From positions 1 to 64,000 of the forward strand of contig JAUJNB010000003.1 in assembly GCA_030446545.1 (NCBI GenBank): DNA of 64,000 nucleotides. Direction: 5' to 3'. Positions 32,871 to 49,680 of this stretch are shown in pieces. The notes beneath the pieces were generated by a model. That model was not told the DNA's origin. It saw only the letters and a list, made by a program, of their open reading frames with translations, and did not search any database. Each line of letters opens with the position of its first letter. The first letter of the stretch is position 1. The position numbers were made by a program, and so were the translations under genes. The stretch is from Acidimicrobiales bacterium. GTDB lineage: Bacteria > Actinomycetota > Acidimicrobiia > Acidimicrobiales > CADCSY01.

Positions 32871-34655
32871 GTGTCAGACCTCTCCCGCTTCCGGGCCCTC
32901 AGCCTCCTGGCCCACATCGACCACGGGAAGTCCACGCTCGCAGACCGCATCCTGGAGCTGACCGGTGCGGTCGACGCCCGGGACATGAAGGCCCAGTACC
33001 TCGACTCGATGGACATCGAGCGGGAGCGGGGCATCACCATCAAGGCCCAGAACGTGCGGGTGGCCTGGAAGGACCACATCCTCCACTTGGTCGACACCCC
33101 CGGACACGTCGACTTCGGCTACGAGGTCGCGCTCGCTGGCCGCGGCGAGGGCGTGGTCCTGCTGGTGGACGCGGCCCAGGGCATCGAGGCCCAGACGCTG
33201 GCCAACTGCTACCTGGCCATCGAGCACGACCTGGAGATCGTGGCCGCCCTCAACAAGATCGACCTGCCGGCTGCCGACCCCGACCGCTACGCGGCGGAGA
33301 TCGAGCAGGTGCTCGGCATCCCTGCCGGCGACATCCTGCGCATCAGTGCCAAGACCGGCGAAGGCGTCCCCGAACTGCTCGACGCCGCGGTCGAGCGCAT
33401 CCCCGCGCCCACCGGTGACCCGGATGCCCCGCTCCAGGCCCTCATCTTCGACTCCCACTTCGATCAGTACCGGGGGGGTCATCTCCTCGCTCCGGGTCAT
33501 GCAGGGCACGCTGCGCACCGGTGCCCGGCTGCGCTTCATGCAGGCCCAGGCCATCCACGACGCCGACGAGGTGGGCATCCGCACGCCCGACCCGACCCCC
33601 GTCACCAGCCTGGGACCGGGCGAGGTGGGGTACCTGGTGGCCGGCATCAAAGACGTGGGCGAGGCCCGCTCGGGCGAGACGCTCACCGAGGCGGCCCGGC
33701 CGGCACCGGCTGCGCTCGAGGGCTACCGGGACCCCAAGCCCATGGTCTTCTGCGGGCTCTACCCGGTCGACGGTGACGAGTTCGAGGGGCTCCGGGAGGC
33801 GCTGGAGAAGCTGCGGCTGAACGACGCCAGCGTCACCTACGAGCCCGAGTCCTCGGCCGCCCTCGGCTTCGGCTTCCGCTGCGGGTTCCTCGGGCTGTTG
33901 CACATGGAGATCGTGCGCGAGCGCCTCGAGCGGGAGTTCGACCTCAGCCTCATCGCCACCGCCCCCTCGGTGGGCTACCTGGTCCACACCACCGCCGGCG
34001 AGCGCACCGAGGTCGACAATCCCTCGGCCATGCCACCGACCAACCAGATCGACCACATCGAAGAGCCCTTCCTCCGGGTTGGGGTCCTCACCCCGTCGGA
34101 GTTCACCGGCACGGTCATGGAGCTGTGCCAGGAGCGCAGGGGCGAGATGGAGGCCATGAACTACCTCAGCCCCGAGCGCCTGGAGCTGCGCTATCGGCTG
34201 CCCCTGGCCGAGGTGGTGGTCGACTTCTTCGACCAGCTCAAGAGCCGCACCAAAGGCTACGCCAGCCTGGACTACGAGCCGGCCGGCTACGCCCGCTCCG
34301 ATCTGGTGAAGGTCGACGTCTTGATCAACGGCATCGACGTCGACGCCTTCTCGACCATCGTGCACCGGGACAAGGCCTACGACTACGGCCGGCGCATGAC
34401 CGAGAAGCTGCGCGAGCTCATTCCCCGCCAGCTCTTCGACGTGCCCATCCAGGCCGCCCTGGGGGACGCATCGTGGCCCGCCAGACGGTCAAGGCCAAGC
34501 GCAAGGACGTGCTGGCCAAGTGCTACGGCGGCGACATCACCCGCAAGCGCAAGCTGCTGGAGCGCCAGAAGGAGGGCAAGAAGCGGATGAAGAACATCGG
34601 CCGGGTGGAAGTGCCCCAAGAGGCGTTCGTGTCGGCCCTGCGCCTCGACGAGTGA
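32871..34655 (+). CDS. lepA: Elongation factor 4 (LepA), frameshifted
   Basis: LepA is a translational GTPase that acts on stalled or back-translocated ribosomes. G motifs are [12 protein letters not shown] (G1), RGITIKAQ (G2), [11 protein letters not shown] (G3), ALNKIDLP (G4) and RISAKTGEG (G5). Two net frame changes are visible: an extra G in the seven-G run near 33473 (QYRG to [11 protein letters not shown]) and a lost G near 34464 (AALG to [15 protein letters not shown]). Just after G3 the sequence reads ALAGRGEG where the family has SRSLAACEG, a locally compensated indel set. The C-terminal domain [20 protein letters not shown] is intact. The full product is about 595 residues. Confidence 0.92.
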
Positions 34656-38663: not shown

Positions 38664-39215
38664 ATGAGCGTCGACGACACCGTCGTTGCTGACGAGAGCA
38701 TCGATCCCAGCTATGCCGTCAAGGTCGGCAATCGCCTGCGGGCCATCCGAAAGCAGAAGCGGTTGTCGCTCCAGGAAGTCGAGGCCACCTCGAGGGCCGA
38801 GTTCAAGGCTTCGGTGCTGGGCGCCTACGAACGAGGTGAACGGGCCATCTCCGTGCCCCGCCTCCAGCGCCTGGCCAGGTTCTACCGGGTCCCGGTCGAC
38901 CAGCTCCTGCCCCGAGCCGGGAACAGCGACGCGCCCACGGTTGACCTGGCCGCAGGAGAGATCCTGCCGCCCGGGACCCTCAACGGCGACGGCCCGGTCA
39001 CCATCGACCTCATGCGCCTGTCCGCCCTGCAGAACCCCGAAGCCGAGCTCCTCGGTCGTTACCTGGCCATGATCCAGGTGCAGCGGGGTGACTTCAACGG
39101 CCGGATGCTCACCATCCGTCGCGACGACCTGCGGGCCGTGGCCTGCCTGCTCGACATCACGCCCGACGCGGCTCGGGGCCGCCTCGACGAGCTCGACCTG
39201 CGCCTGACCCCGTGA
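38664..39215 (+). CDS. BldD-like transcriptional regulator with c-di-GMP-binding motif
   Basis: A 183-residue XRE-family regulator. The N-terminal HTH covers about residues 18-75 (VGNRLRAIRKQKRLSLQEVE, then SVLGAYERGERAISVPRLQR). The C-terminal domain contains RGD-(8 residues)-RRDD (RGDFNGRMLTIRRDD, about residues 139-153). This matches the RGD-X8-RQDD signature by which Streptomyces BldD binds tetrameric c-di-GMP, with R for Q. A c-di-GMP-controlled developmental or global repressor is therefore likely. ATG 38664 has an AGGAGAA-type SD. It overlaps hemW by 4 bp (GTGA). Confidence 0.85.
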   Translation: MSVDDTVVADESIDPSYAVKVGNRLRAIRKQKRLSLQEVEATSRAEFKASVLGAYERGERAISVPRLQRLARFYRVPVDQLLPRAGNSDAPTVDLAAGEILPPGTLNGDGPVTIDLMRLSALQNPEAELLGRYLAMIQVQRGDFNGRMLTIRRDDLRAVACLLDITPDAARGRLDELDLRLTP

Positions 39216-40312
39216 CGCCGCCGGCGCGGCGCGGGGTGGCTGCGTCGGCGCGGCCCGGGACCTTTGGCGTCTACGTGCACATCCCCTTCTGCCGCCGGCG
39301 CTGTGACTACTGCGCCTTCGCCACCTGGGACGACCGTCCCCATCTCCTGGCCGACTACCTGCGTGGCCTGGACCGGGAGATCGACGCCGCCGTGGCCGGG
39401 GGCCTGAGCCCGGCGACCAGCGTGTTCCTCGGCGGCGGGACACCGTCGCTGCTCACCCCCGCCCAGGTGGCCGCCCTCCTGGCGCCGCTGCCCCTGGAGC
39501 CGGGCGCCGAGGTGACCATGGAGTGCAACCCCGAGGGTTTGAGCGCCCGGGCGCTGGCTGGCTACCGACTGGCCGGCGTCACCCGCATCTCCCTCGGTGC
39601 CCAGTCCCTGGTGGACCGGGTGCTCCTCGACCTGGGCCGCAGCCACGACGCCCGGGCCGTGGTGGCCGCCGCCGCTGCGGTGGCCGGCGAGGGCTTCGAG
39701 TCGTGGAACCTCGACCTCATCTACGGGGCGGTGGGGGAGACGCTCGACGACTGGCGCACGACCCTCGAGATCGCGCTCGGCCTGGGCCCGCCGCATGTCA
39801 GCGCCTACGGCCTCACCGTGGAGGCGGGCACGCCGCTGGCCCTGGACCCGGGTCGGTTCCCCGACGACGACGACCAGGCCGACAAGTACCTGGCCGCCGA
39901 GGAGGCGTTGGTGGCGGCGGGCCTGGCCAACTACGAGATCTCCAACTGGGCCCAACCCGGCCATGAGTGCCGGCACAACCGCTGCTACTGGAGCCAGGGG
40001 GACTACCGGGGGTTCGGCTGCGCCGCCCACTCCCACCAGGGCGGCCGCCGGTGGTGGAACGTGCGCACGCCCGAGCGCTACCTCGCCCTTCTCGAGGTCG
40101 GTGCGCCGGTGGAGGCCGCCGACGAGCTCCTCGACGACGAGCTCCGGCGCCTCGAGGGTCTCCAGCTCTCGCTGCGCACGGCGGGGGGCGTCCCCGCCGA
40201 CGCCCTGGACGACGACGGGCTCGACGGCCTGGTCGAGCGTCGATCCGACCGCCGGGTGCTCACCGTCGCCGGGCGCCTCCTGGCCAACGAGGTGGCGCTG
40301 CGCCTGCGGTGA
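39212..40312 (+). CDS. hemW: HemW-like radical SAM heme chaperone
   Basis: A 366-residue HemN/HemW-family radical SAM protein. The cluster motif is IPFCRRRCDYCAFATWD (CxxxCxxC, about residues 27-34). It continues with SVFLGGGTPSLLTP (about residue 70), TMECNPEGL, RISLGAQSLVDRVLLDLGR (about residue 125), WNLDLIYGAVGET and HVSAYGLTVEAGTPLAL. The size and lack of an extended N-terminal HemN region fit HemW, a heme-binding chaperone, rather than the oxygen-independent coproporphyrinogen dehydrogenase. GTG 39212 overlaps the stop of the upstream regulator. Confidence 0.88.
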   Translation: MTPPARRGVAASARPGTFGVYVHIPFCRRRCDYCAFATWDDRPHLLADYLRGLDREIDAAVAGGLSPATSVFLGGGTPSLLTPAQVAALLAPLPLEPGAEVTMECNPEGLSARALAGYRLAGVTRISLGAQSLVDRVLLDLGRSHDARAVVAAAAAVAGEGFESWNLDLIYGAVGETLDDWRTTLEIALGLGPPHVSAYGLTVEAGTPLALDPGRFPDDDDQADKYLAAEEALVAAGLANYEISNWAQPGHECRHNRCYWSQGDYRGFGCAAHSHQGGRRWWNVRTPERYLALLEVGAPVEAADELLDDELRRLEGLQLSLRTAGGVPADALDDDGLDGLVERRSDRRVLTVAGRLLANEVALRLR

Positions 40313-40337: not shown

Positions 40338-41711
40338 TCACTGTGGATCGGTCGCCTCCCCGGGGACGATGCGGGTGGTGGCGCCGGCGGTATCGAGCAC
40401 GACGAGGTGGTCACAGCCGGGCGGGAGGTCGGTCGCCCGCCCGACCGTGGCCCCCACCGCGCCGGGTACCGTCGTCACCAGGGAGGCGACGATCGCCTCG
40501 CCTGGGCCGCCGGCCCACCTGGGGAAGCGCCAGACCTGCCCCGAGCCCGGGCGCACCACGGCCGGAGTGGCGATGTCGTCACAGTCCCAGTCGCCTACCA
40601 GGACCACGTCGCCGGGGCCGGCGACCTCCCAGCGCCGGCCGCCGGCGCTCAGGACTCCGCCGTCCACGTCGATCTGCTCCTCGCACCCGTCCCCGTCGAT
40701 GTCAGCCGTCGTCTCGGCCAGAGGGACCGCGCAGGGCGACGGCGGCCAGACCCGCACGATGCCACCGGTCGCAGGTGCCGTCGGTGGGGTGTTCGGTGGC
40801 GTGGTCGGTGCCGTCGAGGCAACGGGGGGCGCCGCCGAGGTGGGGGGTGGGCGCACCGGCGGGTGCGCGTCGGTGGGGACGGCGCCCCCGCCGGCGCCCA
40901 GGGCGGAACCATCAGTTGGGCGGGGTGGGCTTCCGAGGGCCACCGCGGCGGTCACCGTCACCGACAACGTGGCCAGGCCTGCCGTCAGGACCAGGCGGGG
41001 ACGCCGCCGGCGCAGCCAGGGGAACGACCGTGGCGGGCCCTTGCGGGGGAGGAGACGTCGCCCCTGGCCCTGCACCGCCGAGCCGGGACCACCACCGGGA
41101 CCGGTGCCGGAGGCCAGTTCGCCCAGAGCGTCGGCGAGGGTGCGCATGGACGGTCGGGCGGCCGGATCGTCGGCCAGGGCCCGGTCCGCCACCGCCAGCA
41201 GGCCAGCCGCCCCCGGGACCCTCCCGTCGCCGGCCAGGGCCCGGATCAGCTGGCCCACGGCGGTCACGTCGGCGGCTGCAGCAGACCGGTGGGCCTCGGA
41301 GCCGTCCCCGACGGCGGCCTCGGCGAAGCCGCACAACACCGCCCCCCCACCGTCGGCTGTCAAGACGTGGTCGGCGCTGACCCGGCCGTGGGTGATGCCC
41401 TGGCCGTGCAAGTCGGCCATGGTGGCGGCGAGGGAGGCGGCCACCTGGATGGTGCGGGTCAGGCCCAACCCGCCCGGCGGCCGTTCGGCCAGGGTGCCGC
41501 CTCCCACAAAGGCGGTCCGCAAGGCAACCGCCCCGTCGGTGACGTCGCCGTCGCCGCCGCTGACGTCGACCAGTTCCACCACCCCCGGATGGGCACTTCG
41601 GCGCAGGCACATCGCTTCGTGGCCCAGCCGAGTCACCGCCGGGCCGGCGGCCGCCCACTTGACCACCACCAGACGGCCCCCGTGCATCTCCAGCCTGGTG
41701 CCGTGGCCCAT
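40338..41711 (-). CDS. Membrane-anchored pseudokinase with GDWD-type ectodomain
   Basis: A 457-residue protein with three parts. The N-terminal region has a protein-kinase fold: the VAIK-like lysine (LVVVKW, about residue 16), then HGQGITHGRVSADHVLTADG (about residue 108), where HRD-K-N is replaced by HGR-S-H. The DFG position reads CGF. Both catalytic Asp residues are therefore lost. Next come a basic juxtamembrane stretch, one TM segment (LVLTAGLATLSVTVTAAVAL, about residue 240) and a Pro/Thr/Ala-rich stalk. The extracellular C-terminus has a DxDGDG loop (ADIDGDGCEE) and a GDWDCDDIATPAVVRPGSGQ blade, as in FG-GAP/GDWD repeats. A signalling or scaffolding role is inferred. ATG 41711 was chosen for the kinase-fold start. 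Confidence 0.75.
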   Translation of the reverse strand: MGHGTRLEMHGGRLVVVKWAAAGPAVTRLGHEAMCLRRSAHPGVVELVDVSGGDGDVTDGAVALRTAFVGGGTLAERPPGGLGLTRTIQVAASLAATMADLHGQGITHGRVSADHVLTADGGGAVLCGFAEAAVGDGSEAHRSAAAADVTAVGQLIRALAGDGRVPGAAGLLAVADRALADDPAARPSMRTLADALGELASGTGPGGGPGSAVQGQGRRLLPRKGPPRSFPWLRRRRPRLVLTAGLATLSVTVTAAVALGSPPRPTDGSALGAGGGAVPTDAHPPVRPPPTSAAPPVASTAPTTPPNTPPTAPATGGIVRVWPPSPCAVPLAETTADIDGDGCEEQIDVDGGVLSAGGRRWEVAGPGDVVLVGDWDCDDIATPAVVRPGSGQVWRFPRWAGGPGEAIVASLVTTVPGAVGATVGRATDLPPGCDHLVVLDTAGATTRIVPGEATDPQ

Positions 41712-41815
41712 CCGACCATGCTGACACATTGGAAAACGAGAAACAACGAAATTTACGGAGACCACAGATAAGTGGCCCGCGGGGAGAAGCCGGCCGCCTG
41801 GCCCGAAGGGCCGCC

Positions 41816-41821
41816 TACGCT
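41816..41821 (+). promoter_or_regulatory. -10 hexamer TACGCT for the gene at 41828
   Basis: TACGCT precedes GTG 41828 by 6 nt (leaderless-type), in the divergent region shared with the pseudokinase. Confidence 0.45.
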
Positions 41822-41827
41822 GGCCCG

Positions 41828-42367
41828 GTGCCCGAGCCCGACCCGCTGGTGGAGCTGGTCGACCAGGGGCGAACGGGGGAACGGACGGCGGCGCGCAGCC
41901 GCGAGCGGGCCTTGCGTCGGGCGGCCGAGGAGGGCGCGACCCTGGCCGGGCTGCTGGTCGATCTGGTCGAGCGGGGGTCGTCGGTGGTGATGCACACGGT
42001 CACCGGTCGGCGTCACTCCGGCACGCTGGTGGCCCTCGGTACCGACTACTGCGTGGTGCACACCGCCAGCGGCGCCGATCCCCACCTCCGTCTCGACGCG
42101 CTGGCCTCGGTTCGCCCCGGTCGTGACCAGCGCCACGCTCCACCCGCCGGCGATCGTCGCCCGGTGCTCGACCGGCTCCTGGTCGAGGTCCTGGGCCGGT
42201 TGGTCGACGAGCGTCCCCGCCTGGTCCTGGTTTCGAGGGGCGGCGCCCAGGTGGCCGGTGAGCTGCGCTCGGTGGGTGCCGACGTGGTGACCCTGGCCCT
42301 CGACGCTGGGCGCGACCTGTGCTTCGTCGCCACCGCCACCATCACCGAGGCAGTGGTGGATCAGTAG
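41828..42367 (+). CDS. Conserved hypothetical protein with duplicated Sm-like segment
   Basis: A 179-residue acidic-basic protein that I do not recognise as a named family. An N-terminal helical part (ARSRERALRRAAEEGATLAG) is followed by two similar beta-rich segments: MHTVTGRRHSGTLVALGTDY with CVVHTASGADPHLRLDALASV (about residues 58-100), and LVSRGGAQVAGELRSVGADV with VTLALDAGRDLCFVATATI (about residues 135-172). Each looks like a small five-stranded Sm/SH3-like barrel. This is inference from pattern only. The GTG start is supported by TACGCT. It overlaps the convergent BldC-like gene by 7 bp. Confidence 0.6.
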   Translation: MPEPDPLVELVDQGRTGERTAARSRERALRRAAEEGATLAGLLVDLVERGSSVVMHTVTGRRHSGTLVALGTDYCVVHTASGADPHLRLDALASVRPGRDQRHAPPAGDRRPVLDRLLVEVLGRLVDERPRLVLVSRGGAQVAGELRSVGADVVTLALDAGRDLCFVATATITEAVVDQ

Positions 42368-42719: not shown

Positions 42720-42823
42720 CCGATTCGATCGGACAGGCCATCCTGTCGGCGCACCTCGTTCGGCAGGTGGTCCTGACCCGGACCATCAGACCACGCGCTC
42801 GACGAACCACAAGGAATCCGGTG

Positions 42824-43546
42824 ATGGCCGACCACACCACGCTCCCCACCAGGTCTCGTCCCTCCGGTCGCCAGATGAACGGGGCGGACCCGCCGCCGGG
42901 TCGTTCGGTCCGCTCCGTCCGGCGCCTGCCCGGTGGTCGGGCGGTGGTCGGCGGCTTCCTGGTCGCCGCCAGCGCCGTGGGGGTCTTCGGCGCCTACACC
43001 AACGCCCTGTCGTCACCTGACCGCTCCTTTGCGGTCGTCACCTCCGACGTCGACGCCGGAGCGCGCCTCTCGGTTGCCGATCTCACCCTGGTGCCTCTCG
43101 ACCTCCCCAGCGATCAGCAACGGGTCGCCTTTGCCGACCTCTCCCTGCTCGAGGGGGCGACGGCACTGGCGCCGATGACCGCCGGGCAGTTGGTGCAGAG
43201 CGGTGACGTAGCCAAGCCGGCGGGCGGCCCGCAGCGGGCCCAGATCTCGGTGGCCCTCGATCCCGGGAACGCCCTGGGCGGTGATCCCGGTCTGCTCGGC
43301 CCCGGCGAGCGGGTCCAGGTGATCGCCACCTTCACCCAGGGCGGAGCACCGGTCACCGAGACGGTCAGCCGAGACGCCACCGTGGTGCGGGTGCTCGGGG
43401 GGAGCGATCAGCTGGGGGGCTCGGCCGGCCTGACCGTGGTCCTGGCCGTTCCTCCGGCAGACCTCGAGCCCGTGGCCGGAGCGGCGGCCGCCGGCGTGGT
43501 GTCCCTGGCCCGCACCACGGGCCTGGGTGGGCCCTCGGAGGGCTGA
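42824..43546 (+). CDS. SAF-domain protein, CpaB-like
   Basis: A 240-residue protein with a Pro/Arg/Ser-rich N-terminus, one TM segment (AVVGGFLVAASAVGVFGAYT, about residues 38-57) and a periplasmic SAF domain. The domain contains VTSDVDAGARLSVADLTLVP (about residue 70), a TAGQLVQSGDV loop and the C-terminal GPGERVQVIATF barrel. It matches CpaB/RcpC-type Flp pilus assembly proteins. It precedes a CpaE/TadZ-like gene by 16 bp, a typical Tad-locus order. Other tad genes (cpaF, tadB, tadC, pilin) are not in the window. Confidence 0.75.
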   Translation: MADHTTLPTRSRPSGRQMNGADPPPGRSVRSVRRLPGGRAVVGGFLVAASAVGVFGAYTNALSSPDRSFAVVTSDVDAGARLSVADLTLVPLDLPSDQQRVAFADLSLLEGATALAPMTAGQLVQSGDVAKPAGGPQRAQISVALDPGNALGGDPGLLGPGERVQVIATFTQGGAPVTETVSRDATVVRVLGGSDQLGGSAGLTVVLAVPPADLEPVAGAAAAGVVSLARTTGLGGPSEG

Positions 43547-43562
43547 TGGCAGCCCGGCCCTG

Positions 43563-44864
43563 ATGGCGTCCGAGCGCTTCGTCGTCCTCGGTCTGGCCCG
43601 ACCTCGCTCGACCTGGTTCGTCGAGGTCGGCCGCTGGGCGGCCAGCGCCGCCATTCCGGTGGAGTTCCTCCGTTGCGTCTCCGTGGAGGAGCTGCGCTCC
43701 CGCCTGGCCGCCGGTCGGGCCTACTCCTGCACCCTGCTCGACGGCGGCCTGCCCGCCGTCGACCGCGATCTGCTGCACCTCGTGCGGGAGGCGGGGGCGG
43801 TGGCGTTGGTGGTCGAGGACGGCCGTCGGCGCCGGGACTGGCCGGAGCTGGGAGCGGCGGCCGTGCTGCCGAGCGTCCTCACCCGTGAGGTGCTCCTCGA
43901 CGCCCTCGCCACCCACGCGCCCCTGGTGGGCGACGCCGCCTCTCGGGATCCGGACGACGAGGCGGAGGCCGGCGACGTCGACCTGCTCGCCTCGACGGTG
44001 GCGGTCGTCTGTGGACCGGGGGGCACGGGTGCGACGACGGTGGCGGCCGCACTGGCCCAGGGCCTGGCCGAGGACGCTCGGGTCCGAAAACCGGTGCTGC
44101 TCGCCGACCTGGCCCGTCACGCCGAGCAGGCCATGGTGCACGACGTACGGGACGTGGCGCCCGGGCTCCAGGAGTTGGCCGAGGCCCACCGGGGCGGGGT
44201 GCCGAGCAGCGCCGAAGTGGCGTCGCTCACCTTTGCGGTGGTCGAGCGCGGTTACCACCTCCTCCTCGGCCTGCGCCGCTCCTACCACTGGGCCACCATT
44301 CGCCCGCGGGCCCTGGTGGCGGCGTTCGCGTCGATGCGGCGGGTCTTTCCGACCCTGGTCTGCGATGTGACCGCCGACTTCGAGGGAGAGGACGACGCCG
44401 GCTCGGCCGACGTGGAGGAGCGCAACCTGGCGGCGCGCACCGCCGCCCTGGCGGCCGACGTCGTCTTCGTGGTGGGGCGACCCGGCGCCAAGGGTGTCCA
44501 TGCCCTGGTCCGGGTGTTGGCCGAGCTGGTCGGCCTGGGCGTGGCCCCGGCCCGCCTCGTCCCCGTGGTCAACCTGGCCCCCCGCGACCCGAGGGCCCGA
44601 GCCGAGCTGGCCGGCACCATCGCCGATCTCGTCGCCCCCGCGCTGGGCGGCCGAGCCACGGCCGGATGCGTCTTCCTGCCGGTTCGTCGGGTGGAGGAGG
44701 CATTGCGCGATGCGGTACGCCTCCCGGCCCCACTGGCCCCGCTGCTGGCCGGCGCCTTTCGGGCCACCCTCGATCGCACCGGTCCCCGAGGGGCCGGCCC
44801 GGCGCCCCAACCGGTTCCGGTTGCGCCCGGAAGTCTCGGCCGGTGGGCCGACCAGGGCCCCTGA
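43563..44864 (+). CDS. CpaE/TadZ-like ATPase-fold protein with degenerate Walker A
   Basis: A 433-residue protein with an N-terminal receiver-like region (about residues 1-130) and a C-terminal ParA/MinD-like domain. The deviant P-loop is VAVVCGPGGTGATTVAAALA (about residue 148), in which both lysines of KGGxGKT are replaced. Further family-like segments are KPVLLADLARHAEQAMVHDV, FPTLVCDVTADFEG, VVFVVGRPGAKGVHALVRVL and the final strand RLVPVVNLAPRDPRARAEL. TadZ proteins localise Tad pilus machinery at the pole and often have atypical ATPase sites. ATG 43563 follows the cpaB-like stop by 16 bp. Confidence 0.75.
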   Translation: MASERFVVLGLARPRSTWFVEVGRWAASAAIPVEFLRCVSVEELRSRLAAGRAYSCTLLDGGLPAVDRDLLHLVREAGAVALVVEDGRRRRDWPELGAAAVLPSVLTREVLLDALATHAPLVGDAASRDPDDEAEAGDVDLLASTVAVVCGPGGTGATTVAAALAQGLAEDARVRKPVLLADLARHAEQAMVHDVRDVAPGLQELAEAHRGGVPSSAEVASLTFAVVERGYHLLLGLRRSYHWATIRPRALVAAFASMRRVFPTLVCDVTADFEGEDDAGSADVEERNLAARTAALAADVVFVVGRPGAKGVHALVRVLAELVGLGVAPARLVPVVNLAPRDPRARAELAGTIADLVAPALGGRATAGCVFLPVRRVEEALRDAVRLPAPLAPLLAGAFRATLDRTGPRGAGPAPQPVPVAPGSLGRWADQGP

Positions 44865-44963: not shown

Positions 44964-45185
44964 ATGCAGCGCCAGATCACCTTGGCCGGACGGGTTCGTC
45001 CCGGCGACGTGGCCAGAATCGGGAAGGACGACGAGTTCCGGCTCGTGGAGCGCATCACCGGCTCACCCGGTCGCAAGTCCGCCAAGGAGGCACCGCTCGT
45101 CCGGTTCTTCTGCGACGGCCTGGATGGCTTCGTCGCCGTACGCAGCAATGCAGCCGTGGAGATCCGGCCCCGGCTCTTGACCTGA
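44964..45185 (+). CDS. Small conserved hypothetical protein
   Basis: A 73-residue protein with a beta-rich look: QITLAGRVRPGDVARIGKDD, then EFRLVERITGSPGRKSAKEA, VRFFCDGLDGFVAVRSNAA and VEIRPRLLT. No TM segment or signal. The ATG has an SD-like AGGAAGGG about 6 nt upstream, so it is a genuine translated gene rather than chance. It ends 47 bp before the 3' end of the convergent phoH-like gene. Family not recognised; a small SH3-like barrel is possible. Confidence 0.6.
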   Translation: MQRQITLAGRVRPGDVARIGKDDEFRLVERITGSPGRKSAKEAPLVRFFCDGLDGFVAVRSNAAVEIRPRLLT

Positions 45186-45232
45186 TACCCGGGCGGGCCG
45201 GCCGGTGAGTTCGTCGCTCGCTCGTCGGGGCC

Positions 45233-46065
45233 TCAGAGCAGGGCGGCGGCCATGGTCGCCAAGGGGCTGCGCTCCCCCTGGGTGAGGCGGATGTGGCCGA
45301 ACAGGCGCCCGGGTGAGCACCGTCTTGGCCAAGCTCGGCTCGAGGTTCTGGGCCTCGTCGAGCAGCACCCAGGTGGCGTGTCGGGACCGACCTCTGAGGT
45401 AGGCGACCGAGTCCATGGTGAGGCGGCCCTCCGAGGTGATCTGGGTGATCGTCTCGTCGGCCACGCCCTTGCGCCGGGCGTCGCTCATGGCCACCACCGC
45501 GTCGTGGACGGCGCCCATCCACGGGTCCAGCTCCCTCTCGTGTGCCGGGGAGGTATCCCAGCTCCTGGCCACCCACCGCCACCACCGGCCGGTAGATGGC
45601 CAGTCGTTCGTAACGACGGTTCCCGGGGTGGTTCCACACCTGCTCCAGCCCCGCGGCGATGGCCAGCAGCGTCTTGCCCGTGCCCGCCGGCCCGTCCAGG
45701 GCCACGACCGAGACCTCGGGGTCGAGCAACAGGTCGAGGGCGAAGCGCTGCTCGATGTTGCGAGGCTCGAGGTCGAAGGCCTCCAACTGCTGGCGCAGCA
45801 GGCACAGGCGGTCGCCGGTGCGCCGGGTGAGGGCCGACCGCTGCCCGGCCCGCAGCATCGCGAACTCGTTCTCGTGCAGGTCGCCGCCCGTGTCGACGTC
45901 GTCGACGGCGATGCTGCGCTCGGCGAAGAGGTGATCGATCAGCCCGCTCCCCAGGCCGTCGTAGGGGTGCCAGCCCGGAGAGTCCAGGTGGCGCCCGTAG
46001 GCGGGGAGGGGGACGTACTCCCGGGCGGTCAACCCGAGGTGGGCGGCTCTGATGCGGTGCGGCCA
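45233..46065 (-). pseudogene. PhoH-family ATPase, truncated and internally deleted
   Basis: The P-loop is VVALDGPAGTGKTLLAIAAG (about 45690) and the family motif YRPVVAVGGQELGYLPG lies near 45580. The frame then changes; ITSEGRLTMDSVAYLRGRSR and the Walker B ATWVLLDEAQNLEPSLAKTV follow (about 45360), and another frame ends in LFGHIRLTQGERSPLATMAA. Relative to PIN-PhoH (PhoH2-like) proteins two parts are missing: most of the N-terminal PIN domain (only IRAAHLGLTAREY and what follows remains), and about 35 residues after the Walker B (the THDVAQRDNLRVG region). mfd begins about 110 bp upstream on the other strand. Real decay or an assembly deletion could explain it. Confidence 0.7.
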
Positions 46066-46158
46066 AGGCGAACCACAGGTGAAGGGCCGCCCAACGCCCG
46101 GTCCTTCTCCGACACCGCAGCCGGGGCGTCGGCTGCGCCGGCGGACAGGGCGGGCCGG

Positions 46159-46164
46159 TAGCCT
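46159..46164 (+). promoter_or_regulatory. -10 hexamer TAGCCT for mfd
   Basis: TAGCCT precedes GTG 46174 by 9 nt (leaderless-type). Confidence 0.4.
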
Positions 46165-46173
46165 GGGCAACCC

Positions 46174-49100
46174 GTGCGTCTGTCCTGGTTGCCCTCACTC
46201 CTGCGCGACGTTCCGGCGCTGGCCCAGGTGGCGGGCGTACCTCGGCCACCCTGGCGGTCCCGGAGGCGGCCCAGGCCATCACCCTCGCCGCCCTGGCTCA
46301 GCGGAGCGGCCGCCGGCCCCTGGTGGTGGCCGTGCCCACCACCGGCGAGGCCGAGCGCCTGGTCCACGATCTCGAGGTGTTCCTCGGTCCCGACGACGTC
46401 GAGCTGTTCCCGGCCTGGGAGACGCTGCCCTTCGAGCGGGTGAGCCTGAGCGTGGAGGCCATGGGACGGCGCCTCCGCACGCTGTGGCGCCTCCGCCACG
46501 GCCGGGCCGGGGTGGTGGTGGCGCCGGTGCGGGCGCTGGTGCAGCGCCTGGGGCCCCACGTGGAGGACGTCGAGCCCGTGGTGGTTCGTCCCGGGGACCA
46601 GCTCGATCCGGTCGCCCTGGTCGAGCGCCTGGTAGGAGAGGGCTACCGGCGCGAGTACCAGGTGGAGCACCGGGGCGAGGTGGCGGTGCGGGGCTCCATC
46701 GTCGACGTCTACCCCTCCACCGCCGACGGGCCGGTGCGCATCGACCTGTGGGGCGACGAGGTCGATCGGCTCAGCGCCTTCTCCGCGAGTGACCAGCGCA
46801 GCCGGGCCGACGTCGAGCGAGCGGAGTTGTTCGGCTGTCGTGAGCTCCTTCCCACCAAGGAGGTCAGGGCCCGGGCGGCGGGGCTGGTGGCCACCCAGCC
46901 CTGGGGCGCCGAGCAATGGGAGCGCCTGGCCGAGGGCCAGGTCTTCGACGGCATGGAGTCGTGGCTGCCGTGGTTGGCCGACAGGAGCACACGCTGTTCG
47001 ACCTGCTGGCCGAGGGCACCGGCCGGAGGACCGCCGGGGCCACGACGGCGCGGCCCAGGGGGCCGGTCACGACGCCGGCCAGATCGTGCTGGTCGAGCCT
47101 CGGCGCCTGCGCGACCGGGCTGGCGACCTGGCCGCCGAAGAGGCCGATCTGGCCGCCTCGCTGGCTCGGACCTGGGGGGTGAGCACCGACGGCCAAGCCG
47201 ACCTCCCGCCTGCATCTGCCCTTCGACGACCTCCTGTCCCGCACCAGCACACCGGCGCTGACCTTCACCACCACCGCAGAAGGGCCGGCCACGCCCCAGG
47301 TGGAGGCCTCCGCCTGGGCGCCGGTGGTGGGCGACGCCGGACACCTGGCCGGCCGGCTGCGCACGTTGCTGGCCGACGGGTACCGGGTGGTGCTGGCCGC
47401 CGACGGGCGAGGGTCGGCCACGCGCATGACCGAGGCCCTGGCCGAGGAGGGCGTCGAGCTGGCGCTCGTCCTCGACGACGGCGACGACGGCGACGGCGAC
47501 GGGGCCCACCTGGCCCGCCCGGGTGGCCATGCCGTGGTCGCCTCCTCGACCGGGGTTTCGTCCTGCCGGCTGCCCGCCTGGCCGTGCTGAGCGAGCGCGA
47601 CGTCACCGGCCGGCGCCGGGCCCATCGACCGGCCCGGCCCCGCCGGCGCCACGCGGCCGGGTTCTTCGACGATCTGAAGGCCGGCGACTACGTGGTCCAC
47701 GTGCAGCACGGCGTGGCCCGCTACGGAGGCATGGTCACCCGGACGATGGGTGGGACCGAGCGGGACTACCTCCTCCGAGTACCGGGGGGCGACAAGCTCT
47801 ACGTGCCGTCCGACCAGATCGACGCCGTGCGCCACCACACCGGCGGCGACACCCCCACCCTGCACCGCATGGGCGGGGTCGAGTGGCAGCGGGCCAAGGC
47901 CCAGGCCCGCTCGGCCACCCGGGAGATCGCCAAGGAGCTGGTGGTGCTCTACCAGCAGCGGGCGTCCACGCCCGGCCACGCCTTCTCGCCGGACACCCCC
48001 TGGCAGACCGAGATGGAGGAGGCCTTCCCCTACGTCGAGACGCCCGACCAGGCCCGGGCCATCGTGGAGGTCAAGGCCGACATGGAGCAGCCCTGCCCCA
48101 TGGATCGCCTGATCTGCGGCGACGTGGGTTTCGGCAAGACCGAGATCGCCCTGCGGGCCGTGCTCAAGGCGGTCCAGGACGGGGTGCAGGTGGCGGTGCT
48201 GGTGCCCACCACCCTGCTGGCCCAACAGCACGGCACCACCTTCTCGGAGCGCTTCGCCCCATACCCGGTACGGGTGGAGGTGCTCAGCCGCTTCCTCACC
48301 CCGGGCCAGGTGAGGACGGTCGTCCAGGGGGTGGCCGACGGAGCGGTCGACGTGGTCATCGGAACCCACCGCCTGCTCAGTGCCGATGTGGCCTTCAAGC
48401 GCCTCGGCCTGCTGGTGGTCGACGAGGAGCAGCGCTTCGGTGTCGGCCACAAGGAGGCCATCAAGGCACTCAAGGCCAATGTCGACGTGCTCACCCTCTC
48501 GGCCACGCCCATCCCCCGCACGCTGGAGATGAGCCTCACCGGCATCCGCGACTCACCCTGTTGCACACGCCGCCCGCCGAACGCCAGCCCATCCTCACCT
48601 ACGTGGGCGAGTACGACGAGCGGGCGGTGGCCGAGGCCCTGCGCCGGGAGCTGTTGCGCGAGGGCCAGGTCTTCTTCGTGCACAACCGGGTGTCCGACAT
48701 CGAGCAGGTGGCGGCCGAGCTTCGCCAGCTGGTGCCCGAGGCCCGCGCCGCCGTGGCGCATGGCCAGATGGACGAAGGCAGCCTGGAGAAGGTTGCTGGA
48801 CTTCTGGCACGGTGACCACGACGTGTTGGTGTGCACCACCATCATCGAGTCGGGCATCGACATGCCGACGGTGAACACCCTGGTCGTCGACCGGGCCGAC
48901 CGCCTCGGGCTGGGCCAGCTCCACCAGCTCCGGGGCCGGGTGGGACGGGCCGGCAGCCGGGCCTACGCCTACCTCTTCCACCCTCGCGACCACGCCTTGT
49001 CGGAGGATGCCTACGAGCGGCTCAAGACCATCGGCGAGGCCACCGAGCTGGGCTCGGGGTTCAAGATCGCCATGCGCGATCTGGAGATCCGAGGCGCCGG

Positions 49101-49680
49101 CCACCTGTTGGGCGAGAGCCAGTCGGGCCACATCGCAGCCGTGGGCTACGACTTGTACGTCCAGATGGTGAGCGAGGCGGTGGCCGAGCTGAAGGGCGAG
49201 CGGACGGTCGAGCCCGGCGAAGTCACCCTCGACCTGCCCGTCGACGCCCACCTCCCGGCTGGGTACGTGGCTCGGGAGGAGCTGCGCCTGGAGGCCTACC
49301 GCCGCCTGGCCGGCGTCGTCACCGCCGAAGAGGTGGCCGATGTGCGGGGCGAGTGGGAGGACCGCTACGGGCCCGTGCCGGCGCCGGCCGAGGCTCTGCT
49401 GGCGGTGGCCCGCCTGCGGGCCGAATGCCATCGCACGGGAGTGCGCCAGGTGGTGGTCTCGGCCAGTCCCGTGGGCAAGGGCCTGGTCGCCCGGCTCTCG
49501 CCCGTGCGCCTGCGCCCGAGCGGGGCCCTGCGGCTGCGCCGACTGCACCGAGAGGCGATCTACCGGGAGGAGCTGGGTCAACTGGTCGTGCCCCTGGCGC
49601 AGGGAGGCGAAGTGGCGACCGTCCTCACCGGGCTCCTGGGGGCGCTGCTTCCGGAGCAGGCCCCGGCGGTGGCATCCTGA
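46174..49680 (+). CDS. mfd: Transcription-repair coupling factor Mfd, frameshifted
   Basis: Mfd removes stalled RNA polymerase and recruits UvrA. The parts in order are: UvrB-like N-terminal module ([40 protein letters not shown]); the RNAP-interacting domain ([20 protein letters not shown], about 47670); Walker [16 protein letters not shown] (about 48120); DEEQ box [15 protein letters not shown] (about 48420); the TRG region; helicase motif VI ([20 protein letters not shown], about 48910); and the C-terminal TRCF domain. Frame changes occur near 46235, 46980, 47100-47250, 47550, 48545 and 48795. All domains are present and ordered, so I read one gene of about 1160 residues with consensus indels. 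Confidence 0.9.

Follow-up and report, generated by a model that had tools for sequence, protein, structure and literature searches.

A single-pass pseudokinase with an FG-GAP-like ectodomain as a candidate accessory of the Tad/Flp pilus machine in Acidimicrobiales

We analyzed a stretch of 64,000 nucleotides from an Acidimicrobiales bacterium (contig JAUJNB010000003.1; hereafter the window), in which an uninterrupted minus-strand gene encodes a protein of 457 residues (Table 1). The gene boundaries given in an initial annotation (40338-41711) are right. The best homologue, from a genome of the same genus, covers the full length at 62% identity, and neither end of the gene therefore looks damaged. 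Elsewhere in the window, lepA-, phoH-, and mfd-like housekeeping genes recognized by eye (33346-34655, 45055-46170, and 46323-49680, respectively) are each spread over two or more frames, suggesting indel errors in this assembly; the frame of the pseudokinase itself is intact.

Table 1. Features of the pseudokinase gene and its neighbors, in window coordinates
Feature	Position	Strand	Basis
Pseudokinase coding sequence (457 aa and stop codon)	40338..41711	-	Open reading frame without interruption
Predicted cytoplasmic pseudokinase domain, residues 3-200	41112..41705	-	AlphaFold2 pLDDT 93.1, Foldseek kinase matches, family alignment
K18, VAIK lysine, kept	41658..41660	-	K or R in 46/46 of the pseudokinase clade
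E32, helix-C glutamate, kept	41616..41618	-	43/46 of the clade
HGR (108-110) replacing HRD	41382..41390	-	Asp lost in 43/46
H115 at the Mg-binding (catalytic) Asn position	41367..41369	-	His in 41/46 of the clade, 0/17 active-grade kinases
C127-G128-F129-A130: GFA replacing DFG, preceded by Cys	41322..41333	-	Cys in 37/46, 0/17 active-grade
C127 codon	41331..41333	-	
Predicted single transmembrane segment, residues 240-258	40938..40994	-	Hydropathy and positive-inside charge
Pro/Thr/Ser/Ala-rich stalk, residues 261-325	40737..40931	-	Composition
Predicted FG-GAP-like extracytoplasmic domain (residues 327-457; three blades by our reading)	40341..40733	-	AlphaFold2 pLDDT 91.8, FG-GAP matches in relatives, closest folds FG-GAP-type propellers
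C327 and C343, putative disulfide pair around the first loop	40683..40733	-	Cys covariation
C377 (GDWDC) and C433, putative disulfide pair	40413..40583	-	Near-invariant in 63 ectodomains
Divergent conserved gene that opens the Tad cluster of many relatives	41729..42367	+	Position
CpaB/RcpC-like Tad pilus protein with SAF domain	42767..43546	+	RcpC (E 4.5e-6) and SAF; TIGR03177 pilus_cpaB (E 7.5e-12, under its cut-off)
CpaE/TadZ-like ParA-type ATPase	43527..44864	+	Position and weak MinD/ParA match
hemW-like gene at the end of the convergent hrcA-dnaJ-rsmE-HTH-hemW cluster flanking the pseudokinase in relatives	39212..40312	+	Named from reading the sequence

The inner half of the protein is predicted to adopt a kinase fold. 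The AlphaFold2 model of residues 1-205, computed on 19 family members, is confident (pTM 0.89), and a Foldseek search with it returned kinases at probability 1.00, with a TMq of ~0.76 to IRAK4 and others. In Pfam, the window protein gives only a sub-threshold kinase match (PK_Tyr_Ser-Thr, E 0.007), and its relatives match Pkinase with E values down to 3.9e-37. Together, the models indicate a bilobal, kinase-like fold of the Pkinase superfamily.

Catalytic function is a different matter. The motif at the VAIK site reads VVVK and retains its lysine, as the initial annotation had stated. The HRD Asp is replaced by R110, the catalytic-loop Lys by S112, the catalytic Asn by H115, and the DFG Asp by G128. 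An HGR in place of HRD had been described correctly; for the reading of DFG as CGF, the loss of the Asp stands, and the register was one off, since alignment to the L-S/A-D-F-G of active kinases places G128-F129-A130 at this motif with C127 preceding it. Residues were counted over the 46 inactive-clade rows with the best placement and compared with 17 active-grade rows; of the 46, 43 have no HRD Asp, 45 no DFG Asp, and none has the catalytic Asn. The glycine-rich loop is absent, as just 17 residues separate K18 from the start Met. The activation segment, measured between the DFG position and the helix-F Asp, spans 20 residues, compared with ~40 in most active homologues; it is mostly 10-22 residues long across the inactive clade and ~34-41 in all active homologues but one. 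Conserved throughout the inactive clade are K18, E32, H102, H108, and D148. The protein thus lacks the features by which we judged a Ser/Thr kinase catalytically competent (HRD Asp, Asn, and DFG Asp, a Gly loop, and a full activation segment), and its inner half should not work as a kinase. The fixation of H115 and C127 in the dead ATP pocket goes beyond what neutral decay is expected to leave. Membership among anti-phage defense kinases (MAD6, PD-T4-6, PglW) was considered and rejected: MAD6 scored 26 bits against a 460-bit cut-off, and the PADLOC matches, confined to the kinase region, did not exceed 24.5 bits.

The remainder of the protein bears out the layout proposed initially, a transmembrane pseudokinase with one membrane segment, a Pro/Thr stalk, and a GDWD/FG-GAP-type ectodomain. 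Eight Arg/Lys in the 20 residues before the transmembrane segment and one after it predict an N-in, C-out orientation, and Pro, Thr, Ser, and Ala account for 66% of the stalk. The ectodomain, which makes up the C-terminal part, was modeled with a pTM of 0.83 and is not of low complexity. It carries conserved DxDGDGC and GDWDCDG loops, and its strands can be read as three blades. Among the folds retrieved by Foldseek, the propellers of KICSTOR chain B, BBS, and CRTAC1 were best, with probabilities of up to 1.00 and a TMq of ~0.5. The Pfam FG-GAP models do not match the window's own ectodomain; among 19 relatives, FG-GAP_3 matches four and FG-GAP two, at best with E 1.8e-7. We describe the domain as FG-GAP-like on the strength of these relatives and the model, the E values of its own Foldseek matches lying above 0.01. 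Over 63 ectodomains, C377 is present in 61 and C433 in all 63, and C327 and C343 occur together in 31, are both missing in 22, and are discordant in 10 (p 7e-9). This conservation and covariation suggest two disulfides, which supports a location outside the cell. Tandem arrays of at least four GDWD blades like that of the window, fused to a phosphoesterase, a GDSL lipase, or a β-helix, were also seen at other loci (L129, L131, and L135; genomes G062, G103, and G203), and some genomes of the class hold many copies of such tandem-GDWD proteins.

We then surveyed the spread of the gene. Because a profile of the kinase family also picked up ordinary kinases in every one of the 148 genomes sampled from the order, we used the ectodomain profile to score presence; it detected the gene, or at least the ectodomain, in 70 genomes (E below 1e-9). 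Named GTDB records with the gene are mostly metagenome-assembled genomes of Acidimicrobiales or Acidimicrobiia, or unresolved Actinomycetota, together with one Egibacteraceae and one labeled Acidobacteria. Among 55 ectodomain-bearing kinase reading frames, the HRD Asp, the Asn, and the DFG Asp are all lost in 44, and five are complete. Where homologues adjoin the hrcA-dnaJ-rsmE-HTH-hemW cluster, all three residues are missing in 36 of 38 and the HRD Asp alone is kept in two; none of these syntenic orthologues has a restored active site. Both folded parts are under purifying selection, with dN/dS values of 0.07-0.49 for the kinase domain and 0.23-0.48 for the ectodomain in six close pairs (simple Nei-Gojobori estimates). 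The linker and stalk had the highest value of the three parts in four of the six pairs.

The initial annotation had not made the connection to Tad pilus genes. In families other than that of the window, the gene usually comes after a Tad/Flp locus that has the same orientation, the typical order being an uncharacterized gene, CpaB, CpaE, CpaF, TadB, TadC, a pilin resembling Flp, three TadE-like genes, the pseudokinase, and a LysM-like gene. The names rest on T2SSE and T2SSF in Pfam, on a sub-threshold TadE match, and, for the CpaF of the window's genome, on the TadA-family ATPase model TIGR03819 (under its cut-off); TadB, Flp, and two of the TadE-like genes are named from homology between loci and position only. 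At least seven of the ten Tad-cluster genes lie in the fetched stretch at 23 pseudokinase loci, and in locus L051 the pseudokinase frame overlaps the preceding TadE-like gene. In the genus and family of the window, the pseudokinase is instead divergent from the Tad genes and points away from them. Only the first gene of the cluster, CpaB, and CpaE adjoin it in this genome, and CpaF to the third TadE-like gene are found on another contig (C25, ~100.7-105.7 kb; L085:12653-17700). The Tad locus is split in this lineage.

Several neighbors deserve mention in their own right. The conserved first gene (41729-42367) has no match in Pfam or NCBIfam; it and its counterparts have an Sm-like look, by eye only. 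At many loci, the pseudokinase is followed in the same direction by a gene whose product weakly matches LysM (L037:7923-8732 and counterparts); the two genes overlap in L037 and do not adjoin in the window. A complete ordinary membrane Ser/Thr kinase without an ectodomain is encoded 3.5 kb upstream of the genome's own Tad core (L085:7926-9152, on C25). This second kinase match in the genome was for that reason rejected as a member of the family.

The gene and Tad also tend to occur in the same genomes. Across the 148 genomes, TadC and the ectodomain, taken as a proxy for the gene, are both present in 53 and both absent from 70, with 17 genomes holding the ectodomain only and eight TadC only (Fisher p 1.5e-16); by family, the corresponding counts are 24, 26, 7, and 4 (p 5e-7), and both values are inflated by the shared ancestry that the test ignores. 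Six of the 17 genomes with an ectodomain and no TadC have a Tad-type CpaF. In its linkage to the locus and its co-occurrence, the gene has the genomic profile expected of a Tad accessory. Five genomes (G066, G107, G139, G034, and G067) keep the gene, and no Tad-type TadC or CpaF was found in them, so that they look like genuine exceptions; the protein may therefore act outside Tad or outlive it.

Homologues outside the order point to where the protein came from. In a phylum-wide sample, a kinase with the same ectodomain was found in six genomes of two other families, five of them in Tad loci; four of the six are catalytically complete and two lack the HRD Asp only. Within the order, two homologues (L101 and L139) are both complete and Tad-linked. 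These distant complete homologues reveal the ancestry of the pseudokinase and do not refute its assignment. In a tree rooted on kinases without an ectodomain and built with the catalytic columns left out (quick search, SH-aLRT support), every inactive row falls within a single 48-member clade with an SH-aLRT of 99, and the complete ectodomain kinases form a grade below it; support is low at many of the inner branches, and the branch carrying L137/L138 is very long. A clade of the fully dead rows alone was rejected (p-AU 0.0005). The supported clade is the one of 48 rows because those keeping one or two motif residues (L038, L039, L043, L144, and L137/L138) fall inside it. It seems that catalysis disappeared a single time from a Tad-linked transmembrane Ser/Thr kinase whose shape, address, and ectodomain were retained.

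The complete homologues L191 and L193 resemble PknD, an active membrane Ser/Thr kinase with a propeller sensor domain of NHL repeats. The window protein shares with PknD the order of kinase, transmembrane segment, and an ectodomain that is here only predicted to be of propeller type, and it differs in that its ectodomain has only ~130 residues and catalysis is absent. PQQ_2 is likewise a propeller type, and it has no Pfam match in the window protein. Bacterial pseudokinases are largely uncharacterized, and most of the families described in one review are without a known role; none with a kinase-transmembrane-FG-GAP-like architecture was found among its family descriptions (PMC12599244). In those descriptions, the ActPs1 proteins are also actinobacterial with substituted catalytic residues, many of them without helix G and many with a C-terminal PQQ_2 domain (PMC12599244). 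By description they are set apart from the present family, since all three canonical residues are substituted there whereas K18 is kept here, PQQ_2 takes the place of the FG-GAP-like domain, and no Tad link is described in that account (PMC12599244). ActPs3 is part of MviN, which is required for peptidoglycan synthesis, and recruits FhaA once phosphorylated by PknB; it too is described as actinobacterial and membrane-linked, with degraded catalytic motifs and an activation-loop deletion, but it has VALT where the window protein has VVVK (PMC12599244).

Closer parallels come from export machines. Like EssB/YukC, the window protein would have an N-terminal cytoplasmic pseudokinase of ~200 residues with lost catalytic motifs, a degraded glycine loop, and a short activation loop, as far as these are set out in the available descriptions (PMC9600267, PMC12599244). 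The two also share one membrane pass, an extracellular C-terminal domain, and a link to an export machine, which is Tad here and not T7SS. They differ in that the extracellular part is helical in YukC and FG-GAP-like here, the VAIK Lys is kept here, and the FHA domain of the T7SSb partner ATPase is not seen, the Tad-type CpaF examined having no FHA match; the YukC/EssB family model has no match to the window protein at E up to 1 in Pfam or NCBIfam. Contacts with every T7SSb component are described for YukC (PMC9600267), and TraF of pIP501 is a transmembrane protein with a pseudokinase fold on which a Gram-positive T4SS depends (PMC13037476). Single-pass pseudokinases thus do serve export machines. 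By its description, TraF is similar in being transmembrane, with an N-terminal pseudokinase fold, in a Gram-positive export machine (PMC13037476), and unlike the window protein in its machine and its C-terminal domain. Our literature searches turned up no paper that connects pseudokinases to both Tad pili and Actinobacteria, or to FG-GAP. As the initial annotation had supposed, no named family with the combination of pseudokinase, transmembrane segment, and FG-GAP-like domain was found.

Our preferred explanation, to which we give a probability of about 0.6, is that this single-pass protein, with a kinase fold inside and a disulfide-bonded FG-GAP-like domain outside, is a non-catalytic accessory of the Acidimicrobiales Tad/Flp pilus machine, probably a structural part or a sensor of it. 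On the cytoplasmic side, the pseudokinase domain would dock onto CpaF, CpaE, or the platform formed by TadB and TadC; the stalk would span the envelope, and the ectodomain could contact the pilus, the TadE-like minor subunits, or the cell wall. In this way the protein may assemble or gate the machine, its state crossing the membrane by conformation and not by phosphorylation. We favor a scaffold because catalysis was apparently lost once while shape, address, and ectodomain were kept. Speaking against a Tad role are the five genomes that keep the gene and in which neither TadC nor CpaF of the Tad type was found, the orientation of the gene away from the Tad genes in the genus of the window, and the position of this genome's Tad core on a separate contig.

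The same architecture could instead belong to a literal signal receptor: a soluble or surface ligand would bind the ectodomain, and the pseudokinase would recruit an active kinase or the transcription machinery, or control it allosterically, with Tad as what is regulated. FG-GAP-type propellers commonly bind ligands, the layout is that of a receptor kinase, and the ancestor-like homologues, which carry this ectodomain too, are complete Ser/Thr kinases of the membrane. There is also the active membrane kinase 3.5 kb from the genome's own Tad core, but such a neighbor was seen in one genome only; the linkage, moreover, is to Tad structural genes, and the ligand, the partner kinase, and the regulator are all putative. 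We consider a receptor of this kind rather unlikely. Membership in the hrcA-dnaJ-rsmE-hemW stress cluster and not in Tad would account for the cluster flanking the gene at most loci, even those with Tad out of reach. In most Tad-bearing loci, however, the gene is oriented with the Tad genes, the homologues of other families are linked to Tad in the absence of the heat-shock cluster, and the gene is not co-transcribed with the hrcA/dnaJ genes because it is convergent to them, so that we find this assignment hardly credible.

Two further proposals concern the kinase domain itself. It could be a functionless, decaying relic, with only the anchor and the ectodomain of importance, as the missing catalytic motifs, glycine loop, and activation segment might suggest. 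Against this stand the dN/dS range of the domain, the five residues conserved across the clade, and the confident structural model, and a relic is already disfavored as very unlikely; what has been retained looks more like a scaffold or conformational coupler than like a gene in decay. Alternatively, the ATP pocket may have been rebuilt, with H115 and C127 binding a metal, heme, or a small molecule, or supporting other chemistry, in a sensor or pseudoenzyme. Both residues prevail in the clade and are missing from the active-grade kinases (Table 1), and no row has the Cys without the His. Their covariation gives 9e-5 as a plain table, yet it rests on joint loss in only two to three independent lineages, too few to test, and T, V, or A replaces the Cys where the His remains. 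A rebuilt pocket strikes us as quite improbable.

If the proposed role as a Tad accessory is confirmed, the protein would add an unrecognized component to Tad pili and a further, apparently independent single-pass pseudokinase in an export machine, beside EssB/YukC and TraF. A bolder version, improbable as it stands, would make the Acidimicrobiales Tad/Flp pilus a third class of export machine with a bitopic pseudokinase at its hub; this protein would have arisen independently from an active receptor kinase linked to the pilus, and its ATP pocket would have been rebuilt around a conserved His-Cys pair that binds a metal or other ligand and gates the pilus. The family combines a probable machine with extant active relatives in similar neighborhoods and a defined point of catalytic loss, and it is therefore a usable test of how a signaling kinase becomes a structural part.
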